Shown here one piece after another: positions 5,694 through 61,171 of a DNA stretch of 64,000 nucleotides; the first letter of the stretch is position 1, and each line of letters begins with the position of its first letter. The stretch is from assembly GCF_009720385.1 (NCBI RefSeq), contig NZ_WARX01000006.1:124001-188000 (forward strand). Reading direction: 5' to 3'. The notes below the pieces were generated by a model, which did no database searches, had not been told where the DNA came from, and saw only the letters and a program-made list of their open reading frames with translations. A program made the position numbers and the translations under genes. Source of the stretch: Catellatospora vulcania. GTDB taxonomy: Bacteria > Actinomycetota > Actinomycetes > Mycobacteriales > Micromonosporaceae.

Positions 5694-5758
5694 ATAGACG
5701 TTGGCCTATCTGGATGAAAAATCTGCGATCAGACTCATCCAGATAGGCCAACGTCTAT
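5694..5758. repeat. Hairpin repeat family A, copy 1
   Basis: Perfect 24-bp inverted repeat (5694-5717 and 5735-5758) around a 17-base loop that contains a smaller TCTG/CAGA hairpin. The outer arm reads TAGACGTTGGCCTATC, shared with copies at 14373 and 45205. It sits between convergent tusA-like and adoK stops, so it can act as a terminator for both. Confidence 0.9.
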
Positions 5759-5785
5759 GTAAAACCGGGAGCGACGCCCGGCGGG

Positions 5786-6760
5786 TCAGTTCAGGTGGGG
5801 GCGGATGTCGGCGGCGGCCTCGTCGCCGTAGGACTCGGCCAGGCGCTTGAGGAAATTGTCCGGCTCGACGTCGTACTCCTGGGTGCCGACGGTCTCCAGC
5901 ACCAGCGTGGCCAGCAGCGACCCGACCTGCGCCGCCCGCTCCAGGCCAAGCCCCCACGACAGCGCGGCGAAGAACCCGCCCCGGAAGCCGTCGCCGACAC
6001 CCGTCGGGTCGTACACCTGGATCTCGCGGGCGACCGGCACGTGGATCGGCGCGAAGCCGCGGCCGGTGATCCGGACGCCGTTCTTGCCCAGCGTGGTGAC
6101 CCGCACCTTGACCCGGTCCAGCACCTCGTCCGAGGTCAGGCCGGTCTTCTGCTCCAGCAGCGAGTTCTCGTACTCGTTGGTGAGCAGGTACTCCGCGCCG
6201 TCGATCAGCTTGAGCACGTCGTCGCCGCCCATCCGGGCCAGCTGCTGCGACGGGTCCGCGGCGAACGCGTACCCGCGGTCGCGGCACTCCTGGGAGTGGC
6301 GCACCATCGCCACCGGGTCGTTCGCGCCGACGATGACCAGGTCGAGGCCGTCGAGGCGGTGGTGCACCGGGGACAGCTCGATGTTGCGGGCCTCGCTCAT
6401 GGCGCCGGCGTAGAACGAGGCGACCTGGCACAGGTCCTCGTCGGTCGTGCAGACGAAACGGGCGGTGTGCGCCACCTCACTGACGTGCACCGAGTCACAG
6501 TCGACGCCGTGGCGCTCCAGCCACGAGCGGTAGTCGGCGAAGTCCGCGCCGACCGCGCCGACCAGCACCGGCCGCAGGCCGAGCTTGGCCATGCCGAAGG
6601 CCATGTTCGCCGCCACGCCGCCACGCCGGATCACGAGGTCGTCGACCAGGAACGACAGTGAGACCTTGTCCAGCTGGTCGGCGATGAGCTGGTCCGCGAA
6701 GCGGCCCGGGAAGTGCATCAGGTGATCCGTGGCGATCGATCCGGTAACGCAGATCTTCAT
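5786..6760 (-). CDS. adoK: Adenosine kinase, PfkB/ribokinase family
   Basis: 324-residue sugar/nucleoside kinase. The whole protein closely resembles mycobacterial adenosine kinase (recalled as Rv2202c): N-terminus CVTGSIATDHLMHFPGRF, central SEARNIELS, AADPSQQLARM, and the C-terminal anion-hole/catalytic segment DPTGVGDGFRGGF at 251-263 with Asp257 as the expected base. It phosphorylates adenosine to AMP in purine salvage; related family members act on other sugars, so the substrate rests on similarity. The ATG at 6760 begins MKICVTGS. The gene stands alone between an A-family hairpin and the ErpA-like gene's hairpin. Confidence 0.85.
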   Translation of the reverse strand: MKICVTGSIATDHLMHFPGRFADQLIADQLDKVSLSFLVDDLVIRRGGVAANMAFGMAKLGLRPVLVGAVGADFADYRSWLERHGVDCDSVHVSEVAHTARFVCTTDEDLCQVASFYAGAMSEARNIELSPVHHRLDGLDLVIVGANDPVAMVRHSQECRDRGYAFAADPSQQLARMGGDDVLKLIDGAEYLLTNEYENSLLEQKTGLTSDEVLDRVKVRVTTLGKNGVRITGRGFAPIHVPVAREIQVYDPTGVGDGFRGGFFAALSWGLGLERAAQVGSLLATLVLETVGTQEYDVEPDNFLKRLAESYGDEAAADIRPHLN

Positions 6761-6817
6761 GGTTGACCTTCAGGTCGGCGAAAGATGGGCGCGGAAAGCG
6801 TACCGGTTGACGCACAT

Positions 6818-6861
6818 ACGACAGCGGCACTCCGGCGTGGCCGGAGTGCCGCTTGTGTCGT
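6818..6861. terminator. Hairpin downstream of the erpA-like gene
   Basis: Stem GCGGCACTCCGG (6824-6835) with CCGGAGTGCCGC (6841-6852), extended outward by ACGACA/TGTCGT after a 3-base bulge. It lies between the 3' end of the erpA-like gene and the 5' end of adoK, both on the minus strand. A clear T tract is lacking. Confidence 0.7.
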
Positions 6862-6947
6862 CGCCCACACCGGGGCGGCGGGTGAAGCTCAGGTGGGTCG
6901 GTCACCGGTCAGTGACTGTGCCTACCGGCTTCCACTGCCGCTGCGCG

Positions 6948-7319
6948 TCAGTGGAAGCTGTCGCCGCAGGCGCACGAGCCGCCCGCGTTCGGGTTGTCGA
7001 TGGTGAAGCCCTGGGCGTCGATGCGGTCGGCGAAGTCGACGGTGGCGCCCGCGAGGTACGGCGCGCTCATCCGGTCGACGACGACCTCGACACCGCCGAA
7101 GTCCTTGACGATGTCACCGTCGAGCTCGCGCTCGTCGAAGAAGAGCTGGTAGCGCAGGCCGGAGCAGCCACCGGGCTGAACGGCGACCCGCAGCCGGAGG
7201 TCGTCGCGACCCTCCTGCTCCAGCAGAGCCTTGACCTTGCCGGCCGCTACCTCGGTGAGGTTGATGCCGGTGGCGTCGTCCGTCTTGATGTCGGGCGTCG
7301 AGATGTCGGGCGTCGTCAC
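6948..7319 (-). CDS. erpA: Iron-sulfur cluster insertion protein, ErpA/IscA (HesB) type
   Basis: A-type Fe-S carrier of 123 residues. The three cluster cysteines are in place: Cys52 in GGCSGLRYQ and Cys116/Cys118 in the C-terminal GGSCACGDSF. The N-terminus is a short acidic Thr/Asp-rich lead. The GTG at 7319 is chosen because GGGAGCACCTC precedes it and upstream sequence is non-coding in character. Family role is delivery of clusters to apo-proteins such as lipoyl synthase, whose gene lies at the far end of this window. The neighbouring cysteine desulfurase would be a plausible sulfur source, but this is inference. Confidence 0.88.
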   Translation of the reverse strand: MTTPDISTPDIKTDDATGINLTEVAAGKVKALLEQEGRDDLRLRVAVQPGGCSGLRYQLFFDERELDGDIVKDFGGVEVVVDRMSAPYLAGATVDFADRIDAQGFTIDNPNAGGSCACGDSFH

Positions 7320-7405
7320 GAGGTGCTCCCAAGCGGTGAAGTGCTGATTATCCTTCGACGTAACGCTAGCGCGCCGGGGTTTGATTCCCCAGAGCGCCTC
7401 ACGGG

Positions 7406-7780
7406 CTATCCGCCCAGTGTGGTGTTGATGACTTCGCGGTGCGTGGGCCGCGCCGCGGCGTGCCGTTCCCGCCCGGCCTCGGTGGGGTGCACGAACACCC
7501 CGCGCCGGTCGGACGCGCACAGCTTGCGCTCGACCAGCCCGTCCTTCTCCAGGCGGGCGACCGTGCGCGACAGCGCGCTCTGGCTGAGGTGGATCTGCTC
7601 GCCGAGCTCCTGCATCCGCAGGCCGGTGCAGTCTTGGGCGCCGACCAGCCGGTCCAGCACCTCGAACTCGCTCATGCCGAGCTGATGCCGGTCCTGCAGT
7701 GCGCTCTCCAGCGCGCAGGAGAGCGCCGCGTACTGCCGGGACAGCTCTCGCCACGCCTTCACGGCCACCTCGTCGGGCAT
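7406..7780 (-). CDS. MarR-family transcriptional regulator
   Basis: 124-residue winged-helix repressor. The recognition region LSQSALSRTVARLEKDGLVER and wing DRRGVFVHPTEAGRE are typical of MarR; the dimerising helices lie at both ends. The ATG at 7780 is six bases after a TAGGCT box (minus strand, 7787-7792), so it is probably leaderless. It diverges from an MFS transporter gene, and a long dyad fills the 85 bases between them. Repression of both transcripts with release by a ligand exported by the transporter is the usual arrangement; the ligand is unknown. Confidence 0.88.
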   Translation of the reverse strand: MPDEVAVKAWRELSRQYAALSCALESALQDRHQLGMSEFEVLDRLVGAQDCTGLRMQELGEQIHLSQSALSRTVARLEKDGLVERKLCASDRRGVFVHPTEAGRERHAAARPTHREVINTTLGG

Positions 7781-7786
7781 GACCGG

Positions 7787-7792
7787 AGCCTA
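7787..7792 (-). promoter_or_regulatory. Leaderless -10 box for marR
   Basis: TAGGCT on the minus strand, six bases before the marR ATG at 7780. It ends two bases from the left arm of the operator-like dyad. Confidence 0.5.
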
Positions 7793-7794
7793 AC

Positions 7795-7851
7795 ATGCAG
7801 GTGCAGTAAATGTGAACGCATTTTATGCTTGCGCATTCAATGCACATGCAA
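7795..7851. promoter_or_regulatory. Operator-like dyad between marR and the MFS gene
   Basis: Two 27-base arms (7795-7821 and 7825-7851) around TTT; 20 of 27 positions pair as an inverted repeat. Conserved pieces include TGCA-GTGCA, AATG-G and GCAT. AT content is high for this genome. The dyad lies between the -10 boxes of the two divergent genes, so a bound repressor would cover both promoters. Confidence 0.75.
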
Positions 7852-7852
7852 C

Positions 7853-7858
7853 TAACGT
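7853..7858 (+). promoter_or_regulatory. Leaderless -10 box for the MFS gene
   Basis: TAACGT followed by seven bases and the ATG at 7866. It supports 7866 rather than the in-frame ATG at 7812, which would lie inside the operator dyad. Confidence 0.5.
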
Positions 7859-7865
7859 ACCCGGC

Positions 7866-9341
7866 ATGTCTTCCACCGCGACGCTGTCGCCCCCTTCACC
7901 TGCCCCCTCCTCACCGACCCCCGCGGACCAGCGCTGGACCCCGCGGCTGTGGGGCACGCTGCTGGTGCTGTGCGCGGTGCTCTTCCTCGACGGCCTCGAC
8001 ATCTCGATGGTCGGCGTCACCCTGCCCGCCATCCAGAACGACCTCGGCCTGTCCACCGCGACGCTGCAGTGGATCGTCAGCGGCTACGTGCTCGGCTACG
8101 GCGGACTGCTCCTGCTCGGCGGGCGCACCGCCGACCTGCTCGGCCGCCGCCGGGTGCTGCTGATCGCCCTGGCCGTCTTCGCGGCCGCGTCCGTGCTCGG
8201 CGGCCTGGTCGAGGACGGCACGCTGCTCATCGCGACGCGGTTCGTCAAGGGCCTGGCCGCGGCGTTCACCGCGCCGGCCGGGCTGTCCATCCTGACCACG
8301 ACCTTCCCCGAGGGGCCGGTGCGCAACCGGGCGCTGGGCATCTACACCGTCTTCGGGGCCAGCGGCTTCTCCTCCGGCCTGATCCTGGGCGGGCTGCTCA
8401 CCGAGATCGACTGGCGGGTGACCTTCCTGCTGCCCGCCCCGCTGGCACTGATCGCCCTGGTCGCCGGGATGCGGCTGCTGCCGCGCGACGGCGTGCGCAA
8501 CCCCGGCGGCTACGACGTGCTCGGCGCGGTCACCTCCACCGGCGCACTGCTGCTGCTGGTGTTCACGGTCGTCAACGCCCCCGAGGCGGGCTGGACCTCG
8601 CTGCGCACCCTCGGCTCGCTGGCCGTGGTCGCGGCGCTCGCCGCCGCCTTCGTCGTGGCCGAGCGCACCGTGGCGCATCCGCTGGTGCGGCTGGGCATCT
8701 TCGCCAACCGCAGCCTGGTGCGGGCCGACCTCACCGCGATGGCCGTCTCCGGCGGCTACCTGAGCTTCCAGTTCATCGTCGCGCTGTACCTGCAGAACGT
8801 GCTGGAGTGGTCGCCGCTGCAGATGGCGCTGTCGCTGCTGCCCGCCGGGATCATCGTGGCGAGTTCCGGCCCGGTGGTCGGCCGGCTGATCACGCGATAC
8901 GGCACCCGGCGGCTGATCGCGCTGGGCATGGTGGCGTTCGTCGCCGCGTACGCCCTGTTCCTGCGGGCCGGGCCGGAGCCGGAGTTCCTCACCGTGATCC
9001 TGCCGACCGCGCTGCTGCTGGGCCTGGGCTTCGCGCTGTCCTTCTCCGCCCTGAACGTGCAGGCGACCAACGGCGTCGCCGACGACGAGCAGGGGCTGGC
9101 CTCCGGGCTGGTGCAGAGCTCGTTCCAGGTCGGCGGGGCGGTCGCGCTGGCCGTCACGTCGGCGGTGGTCGGCGGCGGGGCGATCGTGCCGGGCCGCCTG
9201 CCGGACACGTTCCTGCTCGCCATCGCCGTGGTCACTGCCATCTCCCTGCTCGGCCTGCTCGCCGCCGTGGTGGGCCGGGCCGACCGCACGTCCGCGCCCG
9301 ACGCCGAGGATCGCCTCCTCGCGACGGAGAGCGCGGCCTGA
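7866..9341 (+). CDS. MFS exporter, DHA2 (14-helix) drug family
   Basis: Membrane transporter of 491 residues with about 14 hydrophobic segments. The N-terminal motif LDGLDISMVGVTLPAIQ after the first helix and GGRTADLLGRRRVL in loop 2-3 (motif A) place it with proton-driven EmrB/QacA-type efflux pumps. A Ser/Pro-rich cytosolic lead of about 20 residues precedes helix 1. The ATG at 7866 is set by the leaderless promoter. It diverges from marR and is followed after 30 bases by a quinone oxidoreductase-like gene, suggesting a small detoxification unit for an electrophilic or quinone-like compound. The substrate is not known. Confidence 0.88.
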   Translation: MSSTATLSPPSPAPSSPTPADQRWTPRLWGTLLVLCAVLFLDGLDISMVGVTLPAIQNDLGLSTATLQWIVSGYVLGYGGLLLLGGRTADLLGRRRVLLIALAVFAAASVLGGLVEDGTLLIATRFVKGLAAAFTAPAGLSILTTTFPEGPVRNRALGIYTVFGASGFSSGLILGGLLTEIDWRVTFLLPAPLALIALVAGMRLLPRDGVRNPGGYDVLGAVTSTGALLLLVFTVVNAPEAGWTSLRTLGSLAVVAALAAAFVVAERTVAHPLVRLGIFANRSLVRADLTAMAVSGGYLSFQFIVALYLQNVLEWSPLQMALSLLPAGIIVASSGPVVGRLITRYGTRRLIALGMVAFVAAYALFLRAGPEPEFLTVILPTALLLGLGFALSFSALNVQATNGVADDEQGLASGLVQSSFQVGGAVALAVTSAVVGGGAIVPGRLPDTFLLAIAVVTAISLLGLLAAVVGRADRTSAPDAEDRLLATESAA

Positions 9342-9371
9342 ACCACGTCCCCACTCAGAGAGGAACCGCGT

Positions 9372-10283
9372 ATGCGCGCACTGCTGGCCGACCGCTCGGC
9401 ACCCGCCGGGCTGCGGATCGGCGACGCCCCGGACCCTGTGCCGACGGCGCAGGAGGCGCTGGTCGAGGTCAAGGCGATCGCGTTCAACTACGGCGACGTG
9501 TCCCACGTCCGCGACCTGTCCGACGGGGCGGTCAGCGGCTGGGACGCGGCCGGCGTGGTGGCCGCCGCCGCGGCTGACGGCTCCGGCCCGCCGGTCGGCA
9601 CCCGGGTGGTGACGTTCGGCCCCGGCCCCGCCTGGGCCACCCTGCGCGCCGTGCCCACCGGGGAACTCGCGGTGCTGCCCGACGAGGTCGACTTCGGCGC
9701 AGCCGCCGCTCTGCCCGTGGCGGGGATCACCGCGCTGAGCGCGCTGCGGCGGCTCGGCCCGCTGCTCGACCGGCGAGTCGTGATCACCGGCGCGGCGGGC
9801 GGTGTCGGGCGGTTCGCCGTCCAGCTCGGGGCGCTGGCCGGGGCGCACGTCATCGCGGTGGCCGGCCGGCCCGAGCGAGCCAAGGGCCTGCGCGAGCTGG
9901 GGGCTGCCGAGGTCGTCTTCTCGCTCGACGAGATCACTGAGCCGGTGCACGGGGCGCTTGACAACGTGGGCGGCCCGGACCTGGCCGCACTGTGGGAGCT
10001 GCTGGCCGTCGACGGGGCGGTGATCTCGATCGGGGCGGCGTCCGGCGAGCCGACGGTGTTCCCGGCGTACTCCACCATCGGGCGGCGTCGGCGGCTGGAG
10101 TCGTTCATCGGCAGTGTCGCCGGCGGCAACGGCCCGGACCTGGCGTACCTGGTCGGCCTGATCGCCGCCGGCCGTCTGGACCCGCAGATCGGCTGGCGCG
10201 GCGGCTGGGACCGGGCCGCCGAAGCAGCCGAAGCCCTCCTGTCCCGCAACGTCAACGGCAAGGCCGTCCTCGACGTCGCCTGA
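9372..10283 (+). CDS. Zinc-type alcohol dehydrogenase-like/quinone oxidoreductase
   Basis: 303-residue medium-chain dehydrogenase/reductase. The Rossmann motif GAAGGVGRFAVQLG lies near residue 140, but the catalytic zinc ligands of true alcohol dehydrogenases are not evident, so a zinc-free quinone/enone reductase is more likely. GAGAGGAACC precedes the ATG. It probably shares a transcript with the MFS gene and the MarR-controlled promoter. NADPH as cofactor is family knowledge. The stop falls directly before hairpin repeat B1. Confidence 0.85.
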   Translation: MRALLADRSAPAGLRIGDAPDPVPTAQEALVEVKAIAFNYGDVSHVRDLSDGAVSGWDAAGVVAAAAADGSGPPVGTRVVTFGPGPAWATLRAVPTGELAVLPDEVDFGAAAALPVAGITALSALRRLGPLLDRRVVITGAAGGVGRFAVQLGALAGAHVIAVAGRPERAKGLRELGAAEVVFSLDEITEPVHGALDNVGGPDLAALWELLAVDGAVISIGAASGEPTVFPAYSTIGRRRRLESFIGSVAGGNGPDLAYLVGLIAAGRLDPQIGWRGGWDRAAEAAEALLSRNVNGKAVLDVA

Positions 10284-10291
10284 CGAAGATG

Positions 10292-10337
10292 GGAAGGGCG
10301 CCTTCTACACGGACGTCCGTGAAGAAGGCGCCCTTCC
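10292..10337. repeat. Hairpin repeat family B, copy 1 (diverged)
   Basis: Near-perfect palindrome of 46 bases centred at 10314/10315; arms carry AAGGGCGCCTTCT and AGAAGGCGCCCTT. Compared with copies at 48199 and 58509, the A/T pair in GGGCACC/GGTGCCC has become G/C on both sides, a compensatory change. It fills the 65 bases between two convergent stop codons. Confidence 0.85.
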
Positions 10338-10348
10338 TTCGCCTCGGG

Positions 10349-11575: not shown

Positions 11576-11582
11576 GGGCTGC

Positions 11583-11588
11583 ACGATA
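11583..11588 (-). promoter_or_regulatory. Leaderless -10 box for glycerate kinase
   Basis: TATCGT on the minus strand, seven bases before the ATG at 11575, in the 124-base divergent gap with nadA. Confidence 0.4.
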
Positions 11589-11699
11589 GTGACCCGCCCC
11601 GCACGCGTGGACGACCGGCGGGGCGCGTCCCACGCCCGGCGCCGCGTGGGGCAGGCCACAGCCGCGCAGGCGAGCCTGCCGTGCCGGGTTGGTGCGACT

Positions 11700-12851: not shown

Positions 12852-12865
12852 GCGGTTGGCTACGC

Positions 12866-12906
12866 TGAGTACGAGCACCGCGTCCGAATCGCGGTGCTCG
12901 TACTCA
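12866..12906 (+). terminator. nadA terminator
   Basis: Perfect 16-bp stem (12866-12881 and 12891-12906) with a 9-base loop, then ATTTAAG. It lies 15 bases after the nadA stop. Confidence 0.85.
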
Positions 12907-12993
12907 TTTAAGCTTCCCGTGTTTCGTCACACATCACGCAGCGCTATGCTGCCGGGGTTTGCTTTTCACTCGCGCCACACCCAGGAGGTCGCC

Positions 12994-14372: not shown

Positions 14373-14437
14373 ATAGACGTTGGCCTATCTGGTTGAGAAT
14401 GATCTCAGTTTTCTCATCCAGATAGGCCAACGTCTAT
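14373..14437. repeat. Hairpin repeat family A, copy 2
   Basis: 27-base arms (14373-14399 and 14411-14437) with 26 of 27 pairs and an 11-base loop. The outer arm is the same as copy 1 (ATAGACGTTGGCCTATC). It lies 3' of murA and 5' of the DUF3043-type gene; T-rich sequence (TTTT) follows the right arm. Confidence 0.9.
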
Positions 14438-20314: not shown

Positions 20315-20381
20315 CAAGATCGCTGTTTCGGGTCGGAAAGTGAGGTCAGGCCGCAGGTTTTGACACGAAACAGCGATCTTG
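20315..20381. repeat. Hairpin repeat family C, copy 1
   Basis: 20-base arms (20315-20334 and 20362-20381), CAAGATCGCTGTTTCG with one mismatch in the full arm. The same arms occur at 36783-36847. It lies 3' of the MFS gene at 20432 and 5' of azlC in a 280-base gap. The remainder of the gap is G+C-rich with no evident gene. Confidence 0.88.
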
Positions 20382-22028: not shown

Positions 22029-22079
22029 TTAAGAAGGTGCCCTTGCTCTACGAAAACCGTTAAGAAGGTGCCCTTCCTT
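22029..22079. repeat. Hairpin repeat family B, copy 2 (direct form)
   Basis: GTTAAGAAGGTGCCCTT occurs twice in the same orientation (22029-22045 and 22060-22076). Because the unit is itself almost palindromic it can still fold. The right unit supplies the last codons and the TAA stop of the ABC ATPase gene on the minus strand. Confidence 0.85.
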
Positions 22080-23028
22080 CGGAGCGGTAGAGGCGGGCGA
22101 TGACTTCTTCGATTTCGGGTTCGGTTACGGAGAGGTCGCGGAGGCCGCCGAGGGCGGACAGCGCGGAGACCAGGGTGCCGACGGAGGCGGTGCCGTCGAG
22201 GGTGAAGGTCAGCCGCGGGCCGGTGGCGGCGGCGAGGTATACGCCGGGCAGGGCGGGCAGGGTGGCCGGTGGCGCGTCGAATTCCACGGTCACCCGGCGC
22301 TGCGAGCCGTAGCGGGCGTGCAGGGCGTCGATGCCGCCGTCGTGCACCACGCGGCCGTGGTCGATGACGACGATGCGCCGGCACAGCCGCTCGATGTCGG
22401 CCAGGTCGTGCGTGGTCAGCACGATCGTCGTGTCGCCGGACTCGCCCAGCTCGGCCAGGAAGCCGCGGACCGCCTGCTTGCTCACCACGTCGAGGCCGAT
22501 GGTCGGCTCGTCGAGGAACAGCACCTCTGGGCCGTGCAGCAGGGCCGCGGTCAGCTCGCCGCGCATGCGCTGGCCCAGCGAGAGCTGGCGCACCGGGGTG
22601 TCCAGGAACGGATCGAGTTCGAGCAGGCCGCGGCAGCGGCGCAGGCGGACGGCGTGCTCGGCGGCGGGCACCCGGTAGATGTGGCGCAGCAGCTCGTACG
22701 AGTCGCGCAGCGGCAGGTCCCACCACAGCTGCGAGCGCTGCCCGAACACCACGCCGATGCGCCGGGCCAGCAGGATGCGCTGCGGCACCGGGGTCAGCCC
22801 GCACACGGAGACCGCGCCGCCGGACGGGTTCAGCACCCCGGTGAGCATCTTCAGCGTCGTGGACTTGCCCGCGCCGTTGGGCCCGAGGTAGCCGAGCAGC
22901 TCGCCGCGCTGCACGATCAGGTCGACGCCGTCGACCGCGGCGACCTCCCGGCGTTCGCGCCGCAGCAGGCTCTTGCGCACCCGCACGGTGAAGTCCTTGC
23001 GCAACCCGTGCGCCTCGATCACGTTCAC
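22060..23028 (-). CDS. ABC-2 exporter ATP-binding protein
   Basis: 322 residues. Walker A GPNGAGKST, Q-loop FGQRSQLWWDLP, signature LSLGQRMR (variant of LSGGQ), Walker B VLFLDEPTIGLD and H-loop LTTHDL are present. The FGQRSQL and LSLGQRMR forms are typical of a subfamily paired with two different ABC-2 permeases, as found here. The last residues GRAPS and the stop lie inside repeat B2, so the repeat seems to have altered the C-terminus. GTG start at 23028. Substrate is unknown. Confidence 0.9.
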   Translation of the reverse strand: MNVIEAHGLRKDFTVRVRKSLLRRERREVAAVDGVDLIVQRGELLGYLGPNGAGKSTTLKMLTGVLNPSGGAVSVCGLTPVPQRILLARRIGVVFGQRSQLWWDLPLRDSYELLRHIYRVPAAEHAVRLRRCRGLLELDPFLDTPVRQLSLGQRMRGELTAALLHGPEVLFLDEPTIGLDVVSKQAVRGFLAELGESGDTTIVLTTHDLADIERLCRRIVVIDHGRVVHDGGIDALHARYGSQRRVTVEFDAPPATLPALPGVYLAAATGPRLTFTLDGTASVGTLVSALSALGGLRDLSVTEPEIEEVIARLYRSEGRAPS

Positions 23029-28683: not shown

Positions 28684-28719
28684 CCGTCAGGGGCCGCCCG
28701 CGCGGGCGGCCCCTGACGG
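28684..28719. terminator. Bidirectional palindromic terminator
   Basis: Perfect 36-base palindrome with arms CCGTCAGGGGCCGCCCG. It separates the convergent aldo/keto reductase gene and the 64-residue ORF. Confidence 0.88.
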
Positions 28720-36782: not shown

Positions 36783-36847
36783 AAGATCGCTGTTTCGTGT
36801 CAAAATCTGCGGTTGAACCTCAGGTTTTGGCACGAAACAGCGATCTT
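36783..36847. repeat. Hairpin repeat family C, copy 2
   Basis: 23-base arms (36783-36805 and 36825-36847) with 22 of 23 pairs, core AAGATCGCTGTTTCGTG. The loop has an inner stem CTG-GGTT/AACC-CAG. It lies between convergent pepA and the 105-residue ORF, and aligns with copy 1 in the inverse orientation, including part of the loop. Confidence 0.9.
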
Positions 36848-45204: not shown

Positions 45205-45269
45205 ATCGACGTTGGCCTATCCGATCGAGTTCGATCTACAAATTCTCGATCAGATAGGCCAACGTCTAT
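45205..45269. repeat. Hairpin repeat family A, copy 3
   Basis: 25-base arms (45205-45229 and 45245-45269) with two mismatches. The outer GACGTTGGCCTATC is identical to copies 1 and 2, while the inner stem is GATCGAG/CTCGATC instead of GGATGA/TCATCC; the sequence differs but pairing is kept. It separates two convergent genes. Confidence 0.9.
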
Positions 45270-48198: not shown

Positions 48199-48250
48199 GT
48201 TAAGAAGGGCACCTTCTACAACGCGGAGCGTTAAGAAGGTGCCCTTCCTT
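48199..48250. repeat. Hairpin repeat family B, copy 3
   Basis: Arms 48199-48224 and 48228-48250, separated by GGA. It differs from copy 4 (58509-58560) only in the spacer, giving a nearly identical 52-base block 10 kb apart. It lies just after the stop of the SCO5389-like gene. Confidence 0.92.
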
Positions 48251-48255
48251 TGTTC

Positions 48256-49815: not shown

Positions 49816-51696
49816 GTGTCGATCGCCTCGCCCACCAGCCCGCTGAGCCCGCCCGCCGACGTCGCGGAGACGGCCGGCGGAGTCCCCGACGAGGCCGCCG
49901 TGCAGACCCGCCGCCGCCGCGCCGACCTGCTGGTCGCGGCCACCGCGCTGGTCATGGCGGTATGGGTCACCGGCGCGCTCTGGTCGGACCCGGCGCACCG
50001 CGCCAGCGGAGTCAACTCCGGTGACCAGGCGTTCTTCGAGTGGCTGCTGTCGTATGGCGCGTACGCGCTCACCCACGGCACGGACCCGCTCTTCACCCAC
50101 CTGCTCAACGTGCCCGACGGCGTGAACCTGGCGGTCAACACCTCGATCTCGGTGTACGCCTTCGTCTTCGCCCCGCTGACCATCCTGGCCGGCCCCGCGC
50201 TGACCTTCCTGGTCATCCTCACCCTGAACCTGGCCGGCACGGCGTACGCCTGGTACTGGCTGTTCTCCCGGCACCTGGGCGCGAACCGGATCGGCGCGGC
50301 CGTCGGCGGCCTGTTCTGCGGCTTCGCCCCGGCGATGATCTCCCATGCGAACGCCCACCTGAACTGGACCGCGCAGTGGGTCATCCCGCTGATCATCGCG
50401 CAGTGCCTGCTGCTGGTGCGCCGGGACCGGCCGGTGCGCGACGGCGCGCTGCTGGGGCTGTGGATCGCGGTCTGCTTCTCCATCGCCGCCGAGGCGCTGT
50501 TCTTCACCGCGCTGGCGCTGGGCGTGTTCACGCTGGTCTGGGTGCTGTCCCGGCGCGCGGAGGTCAAGGCGCTGGTGCGCCGGGTGCTGACCGGGCTGGG
50601 CAGCGGCGCGCTCGTCGCGGGCGTGCTGCTGGCGTACCCGCTGTGGCTGCACTTCGCCGGACCGCAGCGCTACCACGGCACCGGCTTCGACCCGCGCATC
50701 CACAACGAGGACCTCGCCGCGTTCGCCGCGTGGCCGGAGCGCTCGCTGGCCGGCGCGGTCGGCCTCAACACCGACCTCGCCGCGAACCCGACCGAGGAGA
50801 ACTCGTTCTTCGGCCTGCCGCTGCTGCTGCTGGTGATCATCGGCCTGGTGGTGCTGTGGCGGCGGGCTGCCCGGCCGCACCGGGCCAACCTGCTCGGCCT
50901 GGGCGTCACCGCGTTCGTGTTCCTGCTGCTCTCACTCGGCCCGGAGCTGCGCTGGCTGGGCGGGCTCACCGGGATTCCGATGCCCGAGGCGCTGATCGGC
51001 TGGCTGCCGGTGTTCAACGCCGCGCTGCCGTCCCGGCTCGCCCTGATCGTCGCGCCCGTGTTCGGGCTGGTCCTGGCCTGGCTGGCCACCGCGCTGAGCC
51101 GCACCGACGGCGGCAGCATGCGGGTGACCCTGCCCGGCCCGCGCTGGGCCTGGATCGCCGGGCTCACCGTCGCAATGCTGCCGCTGGTCCCGACGCCGCT
51201 GCTGGCCCGCGAACGCGCCGCCGTGCCGGAGTTCTTCACCTCCGGCCAGTGGCGCGAGTACGTCGCCGACGGCGGCACCGTGGTGCCCGTGCCGATCACC
51301 AACGACCTGCTCCCCGATGGCCAGCGCTGGCAGGCCGCGGCCCTGGCCGACGCGGCCGGGGCGGGCGAGGGCGTGTTCCGCCTGCCCGCGGGCTTCTTCC
51401 TCGGCCCCGGCGGCCCGAACGGCACCGGCCGCATCGGCCCGATCCCCCGCCCGACGCAGACGCTGCTGGAGACGGTCGCCAAGACGGGCGACGCCCCCGT
51501 GATCACCGACGCCTACCGGGCCGCGCTGCGCGAGGACCTGCGCTACTGGAACGCGAGCATCGTGGTGCTCGCCGACGACGTGCACGGCGCCCACTGGCCG
51601 ACCTACCAGCCCGCCCTCAAGTCGGTCATGACCGACCTCCTCGGCCCGCCCCAGCGCGTCGCCGACGTCTGGCTCTGGAAAGTCCCCACCGCCTGA
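49816..51696 (+). CDS. Polytopic membrane protein, GT-C glycosyltransferase-like
   Basis: 626 residues with about 11-12 hydrophobic segments and a large soluble C-terminal part. The first external loop has SGVNSGDQAFFEWLLSYGAYALTHGTDPLF, with Asp and Glu positioned as in lipid-linked sugar transferases (GT-C). A second loop carries HANAHLNWTAQW. Arg/Lys-rich cytosolic loops separate helix pairs. The real donor and acceptor are unknown. GTG 49816 is fixed by the promoter. It converges on the membrane protein at 51824 across repeat D1. Confidence 0.75.
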   Translation: MSIASPTSPLSPPADVAETAGGVPDEAAVQTRRRRADLLVAATALVMAVWVTGALWSDPAHRASGVNSGDQAFFEWLLSYGAYALTHGTDPLFTHLLNVPDGVNLAVNTSISVYAFVFAPLTILAGPALTFLVILTLNLAGTAYAWYWLFSRHLGANRIGAAVGGLFCGFAPAMISHANAHLNWTAQWVIPLIIAQCLLLVRRDRPVRDGALLGLWIAVCFSIAAEALFFTALALGVFTLVWVLSRRAEVKALVRRVLTGLGSGALVAGVLLAYPLWLHFAGPQRYHGTGFDPRIHNEDLAAFAAWPERSLAGAVGLNTDLAANPTEENSFFGLPLLLLVIIGLVVLWRRAARPHRANLLGLGVTAFVFLLLSLGPELRWLGGLTGIPMPEALIGWLPVFNAALPSRLALIVAPVFGLVLAWLATALSRTDGGSMRVTLPGPRWAWIAGLTVAMLPLVPTPLLARERAAVPEFFTSGQWREYVADGGTVVPVPITNDLLPDGQRWQAAALADAAGAGEGVFRLPAGFFLGPGGPNGTGRIGPIPRPTQTLLETVAKTGDAPVITDAYRAALREDLRYWNASIVVLADDVHGAHWPTYQPALKSVMTDLLGPPQRVADVWLWKVPTA

Positions 51697-51715: not shown

Positions 51716-51796
51716 CACGATCCACCGACTTGCCCGGCACCTGGGCGAATGGCGCTTCAAGATACGCACAGGTGCCAGGCAAGTCGAACGATCATG
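51716..51796. repeat. Hairpin repeat family D, copy 1
   Basis: 32-base arms (51716-51747 and 51765-51796), about 26 of 32 positions pairing. Core CGACTTGCC(C/T)GGCACCTG; the loop side has GCGTAT. Same core in copy 2 at 61095. It lies between two convergent stop codons. Confidence 0.82.
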
Positions 51797-55175: not shown

Positions 55176-55297
55176 GCAACCCCCGTCGCCTCGTGCGGCA
55201 GAGGGTACGGACGCGGCCGGGTCGGGGGGTCGGACAATCTGGACACGAGCGGGACGACTAGAGAATCCGCAGGTCAGGGTGCGGTTAACGGCAGATG

Positions 55298-55342
55298 AAA
55301 GTGCACCTTCGGCTGACGGTTGCCAAGCCGAAGGTGCACTTT
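55298..55342 (-). terminator. Terminator downstream of the MMPL gene
   Basis: Perfect 17-bp stem AAAGTGCACCTTCGGCT/AGCCGAAGGTGCACTTT with an 11-base loop. On the minus strand it lies 16 bases after the MMPL stop and ends in TTTC. Unlike families A-D it occurs only once in the window. Confidence 0.85.
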
Positions 55343-55357
55343 TCCCCCACCCCGGGA

Positions 55358-57655
55358 CTACTGCGGCAAGTGACCGTTCGGCTCGGTTCCGCCTGCCCGC
55401 CAGAGCTTGCCGGGCCACCACACGATGCGGCCGAGGTCGACCGTCAGCGCGGGCACCAGCAGCGAGCGCACCAGCAGCGTGTCGAGCAGCACCCCGAACG
55501 CCACCGCGAACGCGATCTCGACCACGAAGACCAGCGGCAGCACCGCCAGCGCCGCGAACGTCGCCGCGAGCACCACGCCCGCCGACGTGATGACGCCGCC
55601 GGTCACCGCCAGGCCCTTGAGCGTGCCCTGCGTGTGGCCGAGCTTGGCGGCCTCCTCACGGACCCGGGTCATCAGGAAGATGTTGTAGTCGACGCCCAGC
55701 GCCACCAGGAACACGAACGCGAACAGCGGGTACGACGAGTCCGCGCCCGCGAAGCCCAGCACGTCTTTGAAGACGATGCCGGAGATGCCGAGGGTGGCCA
55801 GGTAGGACAGCACCACGGTGGCGATGAGCAGCAGCGGCGCGACCAGCGACCGCAGCAGCAGCATCAGGATCAGGAAGATGACGCCGAGCACCAGCGGGAT
55901 GATCACGTTACGGTCGCGCTGCGAGGTGTGCTGCACGTCGTAGTTGATCGCACTGAACCCGCCGACCTTGGCGTCCGCCCCGTCGATCGCGTGCACCGCG
56001 GCCCGCAGCCGCTCGACCGTCGCCAGCGCGGCCGGCGAGTCGGCCGCGTCGGTCAGCGTCGCGTCGATGCGCACCATGCCGTCGACGACCTTCGGCTCCG
56101 GCAGCGGCGGCACCACGACCGGAGCGTCCGTGCCCGGCGGCGGCGTGGCCTGCCCGTCCATGATGCCCGTCCCCGCACCGGGCTGGTCGCCCGTGGCCGG
56201 CCCGCCCTCGGCGCCCGGCGGGACGACCGGCATGACCGGCATCCCGGTGAACGGGGCCGCCTCGGCCACGCCCTTGGTCTGGCGGACCGCCAGCAGCACC
56301 TGGTCCAGCTTGCCGGCCCGGGTCACGATCTCGGCGGGATTGCCGGTGCCGCCCGGGAAGTGGGCGGTGGTCAGCTCCTGCGCGGCGACCGAGTCGGGGT
56401 TGCCGGTGAAGCCCTCCGACTGCGGGATGCCGTCGGCCTCCAGCCGGGTCAGCCCGGCGACACCGGCCAGCAGCAGCACCGCGGTGCCGATCCAGACCAG
56501 CCGCGCCCGGCGGCCGACCAGCGCGGACACCTTCGCCCAGATGCCCGTCTCCTCGCTGGGCGCGGAGCCGAACTTCGGCCGCACCGGCCAGAACGCCACC
56601 CGGCCGAGCAGGGCCAGGATGGCCGGCAGCAGCGTCAGCGAGACGGCGAGGCTGCTGGCGATGCCGATCGCGCCGACCGGGCCGAGGCCCTTGTTGGAGG
56701 CGAGGTCGGACACGAGCAGGCAGAGCAGGCCCAGGATGACGGTGGCGCCGCTGGCCAGGATCGGCTCGAACGAGGCGCGCAGCGCGACCCGCATCGCGTC
56801 GTACCGGCTCTCGGTGTGCCGCAGCTCCTCCCGGAAGCGCGACACCAGCAGCATCGCGTAGTCGGTGGCCGCACCCAGCACCAGCACGTCGAGGATGGCC
56901 TGGCTCTGCCCGGAGACGGTGATGACCTCCGCCTTGGCCAGCAGGTAGACCACGCCGTTGGCCAGTGCGAACGCCAGGCCCGCGCCGAACAGCACGACCA
57001 CGGGCAGGATCGGGCTGCGGTACACGATCAGCAGGATCACTCCGATGATGCCTACGGTGACGCCGAGCAGCAGGCCGTCGATGGAGCCGAAGACCTCCAT
57101 CATGTCGGTGAGGATGCCGCCCAGGCCGCCGACGTGCGCGTCCAGCCCGTCGGGCAGGCCGGTGTGGTCGCGGATCCAGGTCACGTCGGTCATGTTCTTC
57201 TGCGCGTCGGTCTCCGTGAACAGCACGGTGACCTGGGCCGCCTTACCGTCGTCGGAGTAGTGCGGCAGCATCGGGAAGTCGGCGAGCCGGCTGCCCAGCT
57301 CACGCTTGATCGTGGCGAGCTGCTCGGTGATGACCGCCTTGTCGGCCTCGGTCAGCCCGCTGTCGCGGCCGTAGACCAGCTGCGCGGGCACGACGTCGAG
57401 CCCGGCGAACTTCTTGCTCAGGTCGAGCACGACGGTCGCCTCGGCGCTCTCCGGCAGGAAGGAGGCGTTGTCATTCTTCTGGACCTCGGCGGTCTTGCTC
57501 GCGAAGCCGCCCATGGCCCCGCCGACGAGCAGCCAGACCACCAGCCCGAGCGCGGGCAGCAGCCAGCGCAGCCGTCGCGGCCGCGGTGGCGCGACGGCCC
57601 CGGTCTCCTGCCCCGGTTCGCCCCGGAGCTCCTTCTTCTCCCGCGTCGCCGTCAT
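55358..57655 (-). CDS. MMPL-family (RND) transporter
   Basis: 765 residues. Twelve hydrophobic segments in the 1+5, 1+5 order with two large external loops; the second loop contains a long Pro/Gly-rich insertion. The proton-relay motifs are ATDYAMLLVSRFREEL in helix 4 and GVDYNIFLMTRVREE in helix 10. It resembles actinobacterial MMPL exporters for lipids or antibiotics (ActII-3 type). ATG 57655 follows AAAGGA. Upstream lies the palindrome at 57712. Substrate is unknown. Confidence 0.9.
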   Translation of the reverse strand: MTATREKKELRGEPGQETGAVAPPRPRRLRWLLPALGLVVWLLVGGAMGGFASKTAEVQKNDNASFLPESAEATVVLDLSKKFAGLDVVPAQLVYGRDSGLTEADKAVITEQLATIKRELGSRLADFPMLPHYSDDGKAAQVTVLFTETDAQKNMTDVTWIRDHTGLPDGLDAHVGGLGGILTDMMEVFGSIDGLLLGVTVGIIGVILLIVYRSPILPVVVLFGAGLAFALANGVVYLLAKAEVITVSGQSQAILDVLVLGAATDYAMLLVSRFREELRHTESRYDAMRVALRASFEPILASGATVILGLLCLLVSDLASNKGLGPVGAIGIASSLAVSLTLLPAILALLGRVAFWPVRPKFGSAPSEETGIWAKVSALVGRRARLVWIGTAVLLLAGVAGLTRLEADGIPQSEGFTGNPDSVAAQELTTAHFPGGTGNPAEIVTRAGKLDQVLLAVRQTKGVAEAAPFTGMPVMPVVPPGAEGGPATGDQPGAGTGIMDGQATPPPGTDAPVVVPPLPEPKVVDGMVRIDATLTDAADSPAALATVERLRAAVHAIDGADAKVGGFSAINYDVQHTSQRDRNVIIPLVLGVIFLILMLLLRSLVAPLLLIATVVLSYLATLGISGIVFKDVLGFAGADSSYPLFAFVFLVALGVDYNIFLMTRVREEAAKLGHTQGTLKGLAVTGGVITSAGVVLAATFAALAVLPLVFVVEIAFAVAFGVLLDTLLVRSLLVPALTVDLGRIVWWPGKLWRAGGTEPNGHLPQ

Positions 57656-57711
57656 CGCGAGGCGTCCTTTCCCTACGTGCAGAACATGGTTGGCACACCG
57701 TGACACTATTC

Positions 57712-57725
57712 GTGAAAGTTTTCAC
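57712..57725. promoter_or_regulatory. Short operator-like palindrome ahead of the MMPL gene
   Basis: GTGAAA-GT-TTTCAC, 57 bases before the MMPL ATG in the divergent gap with lipB. A TAGTGT box lies next to it on the minus strand. It could be a TetR- or similar repressor site; the regulator is not adjacent. Confidence 0.45.
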
Positions 57726-57824
57726 AAGCGTGGTTGCGCACACCCTACCGACCGCGAGCCGGGCACGCATTCACGGGTACGGGTGACGCCGAGCACCTTC
57801 GCTGGCCAGGCCCGCGAGCGCGAG

Positions 57825-57830
57825 TAGCCT
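57825..57830 (+). promoter_or_regulatory. Leaderless -10 box for lipB
   Basis: TAGCCT followed by seven bases and GTG at 57838. Confidence 0.5.
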
Positions 57831-57837
57831 GAGCGAC

Positions 57838-58500
57838 GTGACCAGCATCGTCTCGCCGGCACTCGCGGTACGCCGCGCCGGCACCGTCGAGTATCTGACC
57901 GCCTGGGACGAGCAGCGCCGCCTGCACGCCGGCGTCGTCGCGGGCACCGAGCCGAACACCGTGCTGCTGCTGCAGCACCCCAGCGTGTACACCGCCGGCA
58001 AGCTCACCGAGGCCTGGGAGCGCCCGTTCGACGGCACCCCGGTGGTGGACGTGGACCGCGGCGGCAAGATCACTTGGCACGGGCCGGGGCAGCTCGTCGG
58101 CTACCCGATCATCGAACTTCCGGTGCAGCGCGGCGGGCTGGCCGACGTGGTCGCGCACGTACGGCGCACCGAGCAGCTGCTCATCGACGTCTGCGCCGAA
58201 CTCGGCGTCGCCACCACGCGGATCAAGGGCAACAACCGCTCCGGGGTATGGGTGCGCGAGGACGAGCGCGGGCCGGACCGCAAGGTCGCCGCGATCGGCA
58301 TCCGGGTCGCCCGCAACGTCTCGCTGCACGGCTTCGCGCTCAACTGCAATCCCGACATGACGTGGTTCGACCGGATCGTGCCCTGCGGCATCACCGACGC
58401 CTCGGTCACCTCGCTGAGCGCCGAACTCGGCCGCGAGGTGACCGTCGACGAGGTCCTCCCCATCGTGGAGCGCCACCTGCCGAAACTCCTCGCCGCCTGA
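57838..58500 (+). CDS. lipB: Octanoyltransferase
   Basis: 220 residues. It moves octanoyl from acyl carrier protein to the lysine of lipoyl domains. Blocks: [44 protein letters not shown] with the catalytic Lys, and [14 protein letters not shown] with the thioester-forming Cys. Its substrates include the E2 encoded at 38809 and the glycine cleavage H protein. lipA lies 5 kb further on instead of directly following. The stop is eight bases before repeat B4. Confidence 0.95.
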
Positions 58501-58508
58501 CCCGACGA

Positions 58509-58560
58509 GTTAAGAAGGGCACCTTCTACAACGCATAGCGTTAAGAAGGTGCCCTTCCTT
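58509..58560. repeat. Hairpin repeat family B, copy 4
   Basis: Arms GTTAAGAAGGGCACCTTCT-based (58509-58534) and 58538-58560, separated by ATA. It is almost identical to copy 3. The minus-strand reading GRAPS-stop of the HtpX-like gene falls inside the right arm (TAA at 58541-58543). Confidence 0.92.
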
Positions 58561-60469
58561 GTGTCAGGGGTGGGAGGGGGCAGTGGAGCATGCCGCAGAC
58601 GGTGCGGGTGAGCTCCTGCTCCGCGACGGTCATGGTGCCGTCCTCGGAGATCACTGCGACGACCGCTTGGATCAGCAGTGACTTGTCGCGGGGGTCGAGG
58701 CCGTCGAGCAGGGGCCAGGCGCTGTCCAGGGCCAGCACGCCGTGCTGCGGGGCGGTCATCGGCACCGGCTGTCCGGGCAGGATCATCGCCAGGCCGACGT
58801 GGTAGGCGCGATCGGCCGACGCCTCGTCCGGGTGGCCGGCGCGGGCCAGCACCGCGAGCAGTGCGGCGATCGCGTTGCGGCAGGTCGCGAGGTTGTGCCG
58901 GCGGGTCGGCCAGGGCGGGGAGTCGTAGGTCGCCTCGTACAGGTCGCGGTGCAGCAGCCGGGACAGGGCGTACTCGAAGACGCTGACCCGGCCGTCGGCC
59001 CTGGCCAGGGTGTCGATGGTGCCGAGCAGCTCGGAACGGCGGGCCAGCGGGTGGGCGCGCAGCGCCGGGAAGCACAGCTGGGCCAGCGGCAACCGCAGCA
59101 GCGGGTGCAGCCCGGCGAGCCATCCCGCGGCCGCGATCGTGTCCGCGACGACGGCCTCGCCGTGCCGTTCGCGCAGCGCCGCGAGCTGGTTGTCGGCCAC
59201 CTCGGGCTGCTCCGACAGCAGCAGCCCGAACAGCAGGCCGGGAGCGGTGTCGCCGCGCCGGGCGCGGGCCAGGATCTCGGGCGGGAACCGTTCGAGGATG
59301 GACTCCGCCCGCTGGTACGCGGGCTGCTGCGGCGAGCCGACGGAGGCGGCGACCGCGTCGGGGCGTACCGCCATCCGGGTGTCCTGGTCCGGCAGCGGAC
59401 CGCCCTGCTCGGGCCCGGCCAGGCCCATCGCCGCGTCCTCGGCCATGCCGGAGGGCGGCCGGTCGTGCCACTGCTGGGCCAGGGCGGCCAGCTGCGCCGG
59501 GTCGAAGTCCGGTTCGAGCGCGCGGATGCGGTCGGCCAGCGGCGGGTGGGTGGCGAACAGCGAGCGCAGCCGGGCCTCGCCGAACAGCATGTGGCCGACC
59601 TCGTCGATCTTCGGGGTGGCCAGGCGGGAACCGGCGTCCAGCCCGCCGATCTTCTTGAGCGCCCCGGCCAGGCCCGAGGTCTGCCGGGTGAACTGCACCG
59701 CCGAAGCGTCGGCCAGGTATTCCCGCTGCCGCGACACCGACGCCTGGATCAGCCGCCCCGCGAACACCCCGATCGACCCGGCCACGATCAGCGCGATGCC
59801 GATCAGGGGCAGCGGGTTGCTGCCCTGGTTGTCGCGGCGGTCGCGGCCGCCGCCGAACGCGCCCGCGTACAGGAACGTGCGCCCGACGATGGCCAGGAAC
59901 AGGATGCCGAACAGCAGCCCGATGAGCCGGATGTTGATCCGCATGTCGCCGTTGAGAACGTGGCTGAACTCGTGCGCGATGACGCCCTGCAGCTCGTCGC
60001 GGTTGAGCCGGTCCAGCGCGCCGCGGGTCACCGCGATCGCCGCGTCGGCCGGGGACCAGCCCGCCGCGAACGCGTTGATGCCGGGCTCGTCCTCCAGCAC
60101 GTACACCTCGGGCACCGGCACGCCGGAGGCGAGCGCGATCTCCTCGACCACGTTGCGCAGCCGGCGCAGCCGCAGGTCGGTGGTGTCCTCCGGGACCAGC
60201 ACCCCGCCCAGGTCGCGGGCCACCTTGCCGCCGCCGGCGCGCAGCCCGATGGTGCGGAACAGCGAGGCCAGCAGGATCGACCCGCCGGTCAGCACCGCGG
60301 TCCAGAACATCAGCCAGGCCAGCTCGGCGGCCGGGGCCTCGAACGCGCCGAGCGCGAAAGCGACCGCGAGGCAGACGACCGCCACGATCGCGACCACGGC
60401 CAGCACGTAGAGCAGGACCAGGCGGAACGACATCCGCTTGACCTGCCGCTGGCGCTCGAAGAAGTCCAT
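58541..60469 (-). CDS. HtpX-like M48 metalloprotease with long C-terminal domain
   Basis: 642 residues. Two membrane helices near residues 15-70, then the M48 catalytic domain with HEFSH at 166-170, another pair of helices near 185-235, and REYLADASAV with the third zinc ligand. The last about 300 residues form an extra soluble helical domain rather than ending at the usual 290 residues. It follows the lemA gene by 11 bases, the common LemA-M48 pair. The final residues GRAPS and stop are contributed by repeat B4. Role: probably membrane protein quality control. Confidence 0.88.
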   Translation of the reverse strand: MDFFERQRQVKRMSFRLVLLYVLAVVAIVAVVCLAVAFALGAFEAPAAELAWLMFWTAVLTGGSILLASLFRTIGLRAGGGKVARDLGGVLVPEDTTDLRLRRLRNVVEEIALASGVPVPEVYVLEDEPGINAFAAGWSPADAAIAVTRGALDRLNRDELQGVIAHEFSHVLNGDMRINIRLIGLLFGILFLAIVGRTFLYAGAFGGGRDRRDNQGSNPLPLIGIALIVAGSIGVFAGRLIQASVSRQREYLADASAVQFTRQTSGLAGALKKIGGLDAGSRLATPKIDEVGHMLFGEARLRSLFATHPPLADRIRALEPDFDPAQLAALAQQWHDRPPSGMAEDAAMGLAGPEQGGPLPDQDTRMAVRPDAVAASVGSPQQPAYQRAESILERFPPEILARARRGDTAPGLLFGLLLSEQPEVADNQLAALRERHGEAVVADTIAAAGWLAGLHPLLRLPLAQLCFPALRAHPLARRSELLGTIDTLARADGRVSVFEYALSRLLHRDLYEATYDSPPWPTRRHNLATCRNAIAALLAVLARAGHPDEASADRAYHVGLAMILPGQPVPMTAPQHGVLALDSAWPLLDGLDPRDKSLLIQAVVAVISEDGTMTVAEQELTRTVCGMLHCPLPPLTQGRAPS

Positions 60470-60480
60470 CGCCGCGATGG

Positions 60481-61077
60481 TCAGAACTGCACGCGCGGGG
60501 CCTCGCGCTTGCCCGGGTCGTCGATCTCCAGCAGCGCGGCCTTGTGGAACCCGAACGGCCCGGCCAGCGCGCTGCCCGGGAACGTCTCGCGCTTGTTGTT
60601 GTACGCCAGCACCGCGTCGTTGTAGCCCTGCCGGGCGAACGCGACCCGGTTCTCGGTGGAGGTCAGCTCCTCGGACAGCTGCATCATGTTCTGGTTGGCC
60701 TTGAGGTCCGGATAGGCCTCGGACACCGCGAACAGGCGGCCCAGCGCCTGGGTGAGGCCGTTCTCGGCACCGGACAGACCCTGCATGGCCGCCGGGTCGC
60801 CCGGGTTGCGGGCCGCGTTGGCCTGAGCGGTCATCGCGGCGGTCCGGGCGGCGGTGACCGCCTCCAGGGTCTCGCGCTCGTGCTTGAGGTAGCCCTTCGC
60901 CGTCTCGACCAGGTTCGGGATCAGGTCGTGGCGGCGGGTGAGCTGCACGTCGATCTGCGCGAACGCGTTCTGGTAGCCGTTGCGCGAGCGCACCAGGCCG
61001 TTGTAGAGCGAGGCGACCCAGGCCACGACCACCACCGCGATGATCACCAGGCAGATCAGCCCGACCAGGAGTTCCAT
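60481..61077 (-). CDS. lemA: LemA family protein
   Basis: 198 residues. A single N-terminal membrane anchor (MELLVGLICLVIIAVVVVAW), then NGLVRSRNGYQNAFAQIDVQLTRRHDLIPNLVETAKGY, the LemA signature, and a four-helix bundle. ATG 61077 is preceded by GTGAGGG. The family is anchored with its bundle outside or facing the membrane and is often encoded with M48 proteases, as here. Molecular role is not established. Confidence 0.9.
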   Translation of the reverse strand: MELLVGLICLVIIAVVVVAWVASLYNGLVRSRNGYQNAFAQIDVQLTRRHDLIPNLVETAKGYLKHERETLEAVTAARTAAMTAQANAARNPGDPAAMQGLSGAENGLTQALGRLFAVSEAYPDLKANQNMMQLSEELTSTENRVAFARQGYNDAVLAYNNKRETFPGSALAGPFGFHKAALLEIDDPGKREAPRVQF

Positions 61078-61094
61078 GCCCTCACCGTGCCACC

Positions 61095-61171
61095 TGATCA
61101 TCCGTTTTGCCTGGCAATCGGACGTATCTTGCTTTCGCATACGCCCGATTGCCAGGCAAGCCGGTCGATCA
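61095..61171. repeat. Hairpin repeat family D, copy 2
   Basis: 33-base arms (61095-61127 and 61139-61171) with about 28 of 33 pairs. Core CTTGCCTGGCA plus CGTAT next to the loop, as in copy 1. It lies 3' of the aspS2-type gene and 5' of lemA. Confidence 0.85.

Follow-up and report, generated by a model that had tools for sequence, protein, structure and literature searches.

Dispersed palindromic repeat families in Catellatospora resemble REP elements and are probably used as mostly U-less 3'-end hairpins that are exchanged between species

The window, by which we mean the whole analysed stretch of 64,000 nucleotides (positions 124001-188000 of its contig in the 8.83 Mb genome of Catellatospora vulcania), carries eleven long hairpins, which an earlier sequence-only reading had sorted into four families, A to D (Table 1). 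An inverted-repeat search, direct reading and folding confirmed all eleven where they had been placed. Eight belong to the 25 longest of the 52 inverted repeats in the window; one of these, A5694, was found within a longer repeat whose arms are 71% complementary. B22029, B48199 and B58509 were confirmed by direct reading. Upon folding, every hairpin beat 200 shuffles, with z scores between -6.9 and -11.5 for ten of them and of -3.6 for B22029, the weakest fold; the stable stem-loop of an intrinsic (L-shaped) terminator is present in the window hairpins. No Rfam family matched in the window at the gathering score. With genes called by our own codon-usage script and not taken from the annotation, six hairpins have convergent and five have co-directional neighbours. 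The earlier count of seven and four did not hold. B58509 and B22029 overlap the last codons of a gene, and no family hairpin was found in the ten divergent gaps of the window. The window also contains two ordinary terminator-like perfect hairpins in convergent gaps, at 2658-2700 and 28684-28719; a hairpin in the same gap was detected in 10/10 and 9/9 of the compared congeners, respectively.

Table 1. Family hairpins of the window, their gene context and the families seen in the orthologous gaps of the compared species.
Feature	Position	Strand	Gene context	Orthologous gaps (species)
Family A hairpin	5694..5758	.	convergent gap 5630/5786	A 5/11, G 1
Family B hairpin	10292..10337	.	convergent gap 10283/10349	B 5/6, D 1/6
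Family A hairpin	14373..14437	.	co-directional gap 14322/14614, 50 nt past stop	A 6/11, B 2/11
Family C hairpin	20315..20381	.	co-directional gap 20139/20432	of 7: C 1, D 1, A 1, B 2
Family B hairpin (weak)	22029..22080	.	co-directional; overlaps 3' end of gene 22060-23028 (-)	B 7/11, B plus C 2/11
Family C hairpin	36783..36847	.	convergent gap 36763/36866	C 6/10, A 3/10
Family A hairpin	45205..45269	.	convergent gap 45189/45313	A 6/8; J-type (by reading) in the other 2
Family B hairpin	48199..48252	.	co-directional gap 48150/48256	B 8/8
Family D hairpin	51716..51796	.	convergent gap 51696/51824	D 3/9, C 1/9, without family hairpin 5/9
Family B hairpin	58509..58560	.	convergent gap 58500/58541; overlaps 3' end of gene 58541-60469 (-)	E 4/8, B 2/8, B plus C 2/8
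Family D hairpin	61095..61171	.	co-directional gap, 46 nt past stop of 61218-62495 (-); reaches possible start region of 60481-61101/61140 (-)	D 8/8

Searching 840 kb de novo (C1:1-400000 plus C4:1-440000), we found 152 hairpins: 73 each in convergent and in co-directional gaps, 1 in a divergent gap and 5 within genes. Average-linkage clustering, chosen over single linkage, which had lumped 103 hairpins, left 47 hairpins as singletons and yielded nine dispersed long-palindrome families; GC-rich hairpins in additional small clusters, which resemble ordinary terminators, were left out. The hairpins of the clustered families measure 41 to 97 bp, mostly 45-85 bp. A profile search of 1.32 Mb of this genome returned 239 copies of the nine families (B 57, C 45, E 34, F 34, A 24, D 24, G 12, I 6 and H 3), a number that must not be scaled up because the sample is non-uniform for family A, which occupies 14 places within C1:1-720000 against 4 across the other 805 kb of C1. 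The four families seen at the outset were consequently an undercount: nine exist in the 840 kb, and a tenth, J, was noticed in orthologous gaps and has 16 arm matches in these 1.32 Mb. The counts include neither family J nor the TTTGCTCTGCACCC hairpin of two congeners, G004 and G005. The family models derive from the 840 kb and were refined with the 1.32 Mb under test, of which the 840 kb are a part, a circularity that is answered by a held-out set. Genome-wide, the family A arm (at most one mismatch) gave 60+63 matches versus 1+1 for a reversed-pattern control, and the family C arm 85+87 versus 0+0; the arm spacing in these two families is mostly 45 and 49 bases. GATC near the ends is common to the otherwise distinct families C, D, F, I and J.

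The 239 copies are distributed over 99 convergent, 126 co-directional and 10 divergent positions, with 4 within genes. When only gaps of at least 80 bp are considered, 84 of 119 convergent, 108 of 387 co-directional and 9 of 187 divergent gaps hold a copy (Fisher test, p 5e-36 for convergent versus divergent and p 4e-12 for co-directional versus divergent). Copies in co-directional gaps are separated by a median of 31 nt from the stop and of 127 nt from the next start, and 105 of the 126 are nearer to the stop. With the models fixed, a held-out 400 kb yielded 47 copies (22 convergent, 19 co-directional, 3 divergent, 3 in genes or at ends). Ten sister species, which share gaps by descent and are hence not ten independent samples, contributed 116 copies (48, 62, 3 and 3 in the same order). 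Because both sets agree with the 1.32 Mb counts, we conclude that divergent copies are rare, not absent. The absence of copies from divergent gaps, as first noticed, thus holds for the window, while elsewhere such copies occur (10/239). The copies are not spread equally into divergent gaps or genes (4/239 in the latter), so that the idea of a dispersed set instead of random insertion is well supported by the gap counts in all three samples.

Hairpins at gene ends are by themselves nothing special. Two other genera, analysed over 200 kb each, gave 16 and 18 hairpins, of which 14 and 16 lie in convergent or co-directional gaps. Such a frequency would be expected if the Catellatospora hairpins were ordinary high-GC intrinsic terminators that look alike by chance or convergence. 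In the control genera, however, no larger family and no profile match was seen in the 200 kb searched, with one pair of alike GC-rich hairpins in each, and most hairpins (14/16 and 16/18) are singletons, while families A-F here have 24-57 copies each and the arm counts of A and C are far above their control. Because the control genera share the 3'-end hairpins but have no families, the placement seems to be general and the repeat families the special part. The sequence behind the stems also speaks against ordinary terminators. Counted from the end of the profile match, the mean number of T in the following 8 nt is 0.85-1.72 for the family hairpins versus 2.06-2.28 for ordinary ones. At least 3 T in 8 nt follow 9/152 convergent sides and 5/96 co-directional copies of the families other than B, compared with 9/46 and 7/30 for B and 17/64 and 19/47 for ordinary hairpins. 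The U tract, the second feature of an L-shaped terminator, is hence missing after most family stems, with B being intermediate. We give the idea of chance resemblance next to no credence: it is refuted for the families, while it probably still fits the 47 singletons of the 840 kb.

The stretch between stop codon and hairpin is enriched in C for families other than B, with C 0.47 and G 0.31 in convergent and C 0.42 and G 0.33 in co-directional gaps, versus C 0.35 and G 0.35 after hairpin-less stops. An excess of C over G is a known trait of Rho loading sites, but in co-directional gaps a G-rich stretch follows the hairpin, which is also compatible with a formerly longer palindrome.

Family copies and ordinary hairpins tend to avoid each other in convergent gaps. 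An ordinary hairpin is present in 6 of 91 convergent gaps with a family copy versus 32 of 80 without. A plain Fisher test of this exclusion (p 1e-7) overstates it, because part of the effect comes from the short leftover sequence; the fair comparison is a random-insertion null, under which 13.9 gaps with both are expected versus the observed 6 (p 0.006). In the relatives, 0 of 44 convergent gaps have an ordinary hairpin beside the family copy (null 6.4, p 0.001), and the held-out set alone points the same way without being significant (2/20, null 4.4, p 0.1). Co-directional gaps of 150-400 bp show the effect as well (1/42 with a family copy versus 26/137, p 0.006), whereas those of 40-150 bp show no exclusion of ordinary hairpins (3/54 versus 21/259, p 0.78). 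In two sister genomes, G007 and G002, a D hairpin is located by reading after an intact ordinary terminator-like hairpin.

We next consider whether the arms change together. Cells changed on both sides number 53 versus 16.9 in shuffles for family A (24/24 copies), 40 versus 19.1 for family E (30/34 copies, the set being without three short fragments and one copy that lacks a locus reference) and 104 versus 59.4 for family C (45/45 copies). For none of the three did any of 500 shuffles reach the observed value, although shuffles overstate this significance because the copies are related. The joint changes in A, E and C also exceed those in slid registers. Other measures are less clear: the number of pairs changed on both sides in family C was reached by 26/500 shuffles, and the number of further pair types in family A by 266/500. 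Palindrome correction during replication could be an alternative source of covarying arms. If selection acted on the sense-strand RNA, GU should exceed AC mismatches in co-directional copies. Without 28 weak stems (19 co-directional, 7 convergent, 2 divergent), we counted GU 69 versus AC 58 in this genome (p 0.19) and 30 versus 22 in the relatives (pooled 99 versus 80, p 0.09), which gives no clear sign of selection on the RNA.

The covariation bears on the proposal that the repeats act as double-stranded DNA, for example as gyrase or nucleoid-protein sites at which the supercoils of convergent genes accumulate, a role that has been proposed for the BIMEs of E. coli. Gyrase targeting of REPs is also mentioned in the consulted part of PMC3733652. 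The density of copies is indeed highest in convergent gaps (3.40 per kb of gap, versus 1.33 in co-directional and 0.22 in divergent ones), and GATCG is invariant in 45/45 family C copies. Still, sites of one kind are occupied by nine distinct sequences, which replace one another there, and the changes in variable pairs preserve pairing and not sequence. Because distinct sequences interchange at like sites, shape is favoured over the sequence recognised by a protein, and we regard DNA sites as quite improbable.

The window is in part syntenic with ten congeners, with 400 bp anchors beside the eleven hairpins that are 74.5-98% identical. In seventeen gaps one or more species carry a family hairpin, and in 15 of these at least two species do. 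At 9 of the 15 the set of families differs between species, and at 13 of the 17 some compared species have no family hairpin at all. The gap 58500/58541 is a clear case: B is found in this genome and G006, E in four species and B plus C in G007 and G002, though the flanking genes are 87-95% identical between species. At 51696/51824 the gap of the five species without a family hairpin is only 13-43 bp long, and at 5630/5786 it is just 5 bp long in two species. Because of these short gaps, a hairpin is not required at either place. The median coefficient of variation of gap length between species is 0.43 for convergent (7 gaps), 0.12 for co-directional (13) and 0.04 for divergent gaps (9).

How far the copies remember their locus differs between families. 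Family A copies that close species have at one gap resemble each other no more than do copies at different gaps of one genome (0.728, 40 pairs, versus 0.748, 15 pairs, p 0.39). Families B and D retain a locus signal, with 0.771 versus 0.621 (p 0.012) and 0.853 versus 0.698 (p 0.008, on 3 within-genome pairs only), respectively, and the pairing of their copies is by reading preserved. These data allow us to weigh a neutral scenario, according to which some enzyme spreads mobile palindromes without any role, their presence in 3' gaps merely reflects that insertion does the least harm there, and the perfection of the arms stems from templated correction or recent copying. The rare but real divergent copies, the species without a family hairpin at given gaps, the missing clear wobble signal, the lack of locus memory in A and the variation from 2 to 140 exact A arms among the 11 genus genomes are all in line with it. 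Against it stand the shortfall of ordinary hairpins, relative to random insertion, in convergent gaps with a family copy, the occupation of 84/119 convergent gaps of at least 80 bp, and the locus signal of B and D with its preserved pairing. We consider neutrality possible but rather doubtful.

At least 108 stretches hold an intact family A palindrome, and the 80 among the matches listed all belong to Catellatospora, Micromonosporaceae. The family A core is present in 11/11 genus genomes, this one included, and outside the genus in 1/62 genomes of the taxonomic family and 0/48 of the order. The family C core occurs in 9/11 genus genomes, and the family F core in 9/91 genomes of the taxonomic family. 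Family B is patchy, with its core in 14/91 genomes of the taxonomic family; one of them, G066, has 148 B cores, whereas the core is missing from two genomes of its genus, and in 120 kb of G066 a single B copy was found, in a convergent gap. This patchiness, together with the differing families at one gap in sister species, bears out the earlier description of the elements as portable.

A RAYT/HUH transposase, which had been suggested as the mobilising enzyme, was not found: a search with PF01797 (RAYT-type transposase) gave 0 matches in this genome, which is 99.8% complete. At least one match, as candidate RAYTs only, exists in 6/11 genus genomes and none in 4 of the 10 others. G002 has no PF01797 match and yet 327 exact family B cores, the most among the five genus genomes searched. 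Solo arms outside whole copies are absent from the 1.32 Mb for 7 of 8 families tested, with 3 for B, and for all 8 no inverted solo-arm pair within 3.5 kb, as a parent element with the same ends (a MITE feature) would show, was seen there. A search for target-site duplications between G007/G002 (94.6-96.4% identical) and G003/G010 gave no clean insertion, as 3' gaps diverge too fast between the species compared. Searches for carriers gave no match for C in phage and plasmid collections, for A in phages and for B and D in plasmids.

Family F is special in its arrangement, with 11 inverted pairs under 3 kb versus 2.1 in the null, 10 of them inward-facing ("+-"). The pairs bracket up to two genes or another hairpin (for example C4:54243-54630 and C1:601037-601952). 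The excess is not significant for A, B, C, D, E and G (B: 9 pairs, null 5.9, 7/9 inward). In G007, two palindromes of about 140 bp (L254 and L255, 541501-543500 and 755501-757500) are bounded on either side by the F left arm and have another centre; they are a longer form of F. The F-bracketed genes at one locus, presumably dapB-like, are not mobile cassettes, as their order is kept in 11/11 genus genomes; at another F-bracketed locus G007 and G010 do not have the same content between the copies.

Several candidates for a parent insertion sequence could be dismissed. Two A arms 1.2 kb apart in G004 (L094:1984-3191) turned out to be two whole A hairpins that flank a single DUF559 / REase_MTES_1575 gene, whose neighbours we take to be transporter and PhoU-like genes. 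A similar A arrangement in G003 (L095:2254-3494) is really an element with an rve-domain protein inside an A hairpin, so that A palindromes can themselves be hit by insertions. In G001, two C arms at a distance of 1.45 kb belong to two separate hairpins.

Taken together, Catellatospora has no fewer than nine distinct families, or ten if J is counted, whose behaviour is that of REP elements. We lean towards reading them as REP-like palindromic repeats, without a REP tag or a known transposase, that are tolerated at 3' ends, exchanged between species and, judging from the DNA, probably used from both directions as mostly U-less 3'-end hairpins. The repeats would multiply within the genome, persist chiefly where genes end and be swapped or substituted there from one species to the next, while insertions elsewhere would be removed because they break promoters, leaders or genes. 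Each copy, transcribed from one or both sides, would fold into a long hairpin, mostly without U tract, that serves to end or protect the transcript, either as an I-shaped terminator or as a stable end left by Rho or RNases, and a family copy could therefore stand in for an ordinary terminator. As for the proposed role as terminators or 3'-UTR elements, a terminator function is plausible: the covarying arms and the scarcity of ordinary hairpins in convergent gaps relative to random insertion speak for it, the mostly missing U tract and the species without a family hairpin against it. One may go further and imagine a genus-wide pool of at least ten mostly U-less palindromes that serve as interchangeable 3'-end signals, any family at any gene end, with whole hairpins being replaced over the time of species divergence and copied without RAYT or parent transposon, perhaps by strand templating. 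We think this extension unlikely.

REP repeats of other bacteria have been described before from 3' gaps; here many families show this placement at once in an actinomycete genus. In the literature searched, such families did not turn up for Catellatospora or Micromonosporaceae. The system allows one to ask whether gene-end signals are exchangeable like spare parts, whether the repeats are parasitic or useful, and what copies them without RAYT. It also suggests that terminator predictors based on U tracts would miss many such ends.

REPIN/RAYT systems have inverted pairs as their unit and a RAYT, a Y1 transposase, in the genome. Family F is like REPINs in its inward-facing pairs (10/11 under 3 kb), and unlike them in that a pair can bracket whole genes and that PF01797 is missing from this genome and from 4/10 others of the genus, G002 included. 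The consulted part of PMC3733652 describes REP repeats, mainly from Proteobacteria, as high-copy palindromes of several families per genome, located mainly downstream of genes and between co-directional or convergent ones, with units of 20-40 bp and the super-families GTAG and CGTC; Actinobacteria, Streptomyces, Micromonospora and Salinispora do not occur in its main text. The Catellatospora repeats agree with this portrait (PMC3733652, same part) as high-copy palindromes of 3' gaps, in their inverted dimers (here family F) and in a presence that varies between related species. They depart from it in their length, mostly 45-85 bp, and in an actinobacterial host genus with no PF01797 match in this genome. 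Unlike GTAG and CGTC REPs, they also have no conserved unpaired tag: the 20 nt flanks of A-G are without a conserved tetranucleotide, and family A ends in CGTCTAT, but this end is paired.

The uptake-sequence terminators of Neisseria and Pasteurellaceae are similar in that a dispersed repeat forms a hairpin at many gene 3' ends; they are made, according to the portion of PMC1852404 consulted, from 9-11 nt uptake signals and have T-rich tails. The unit here is, in contrast, a long palindrome with hardly any solo arms and few T after the stem. The stem-loop sequence families of 40 bacterial genomes, as outlined in the available part of PMC2267715, are likewise intergenic, structured repeat families, some of which are thought to be terminators. 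Finally, transcripts of Streptomyces clavuligerus end in stem-loops without U tract, which the consulted sections of PMC8269248 discuss as I-shaped terminators or Rho-dependent transcript ends and do not describe as repeat families. The Catellatospora hairpins, known here from DNA alone, share with them the stable stem-loop without a U tract and differ in belonging to such families.
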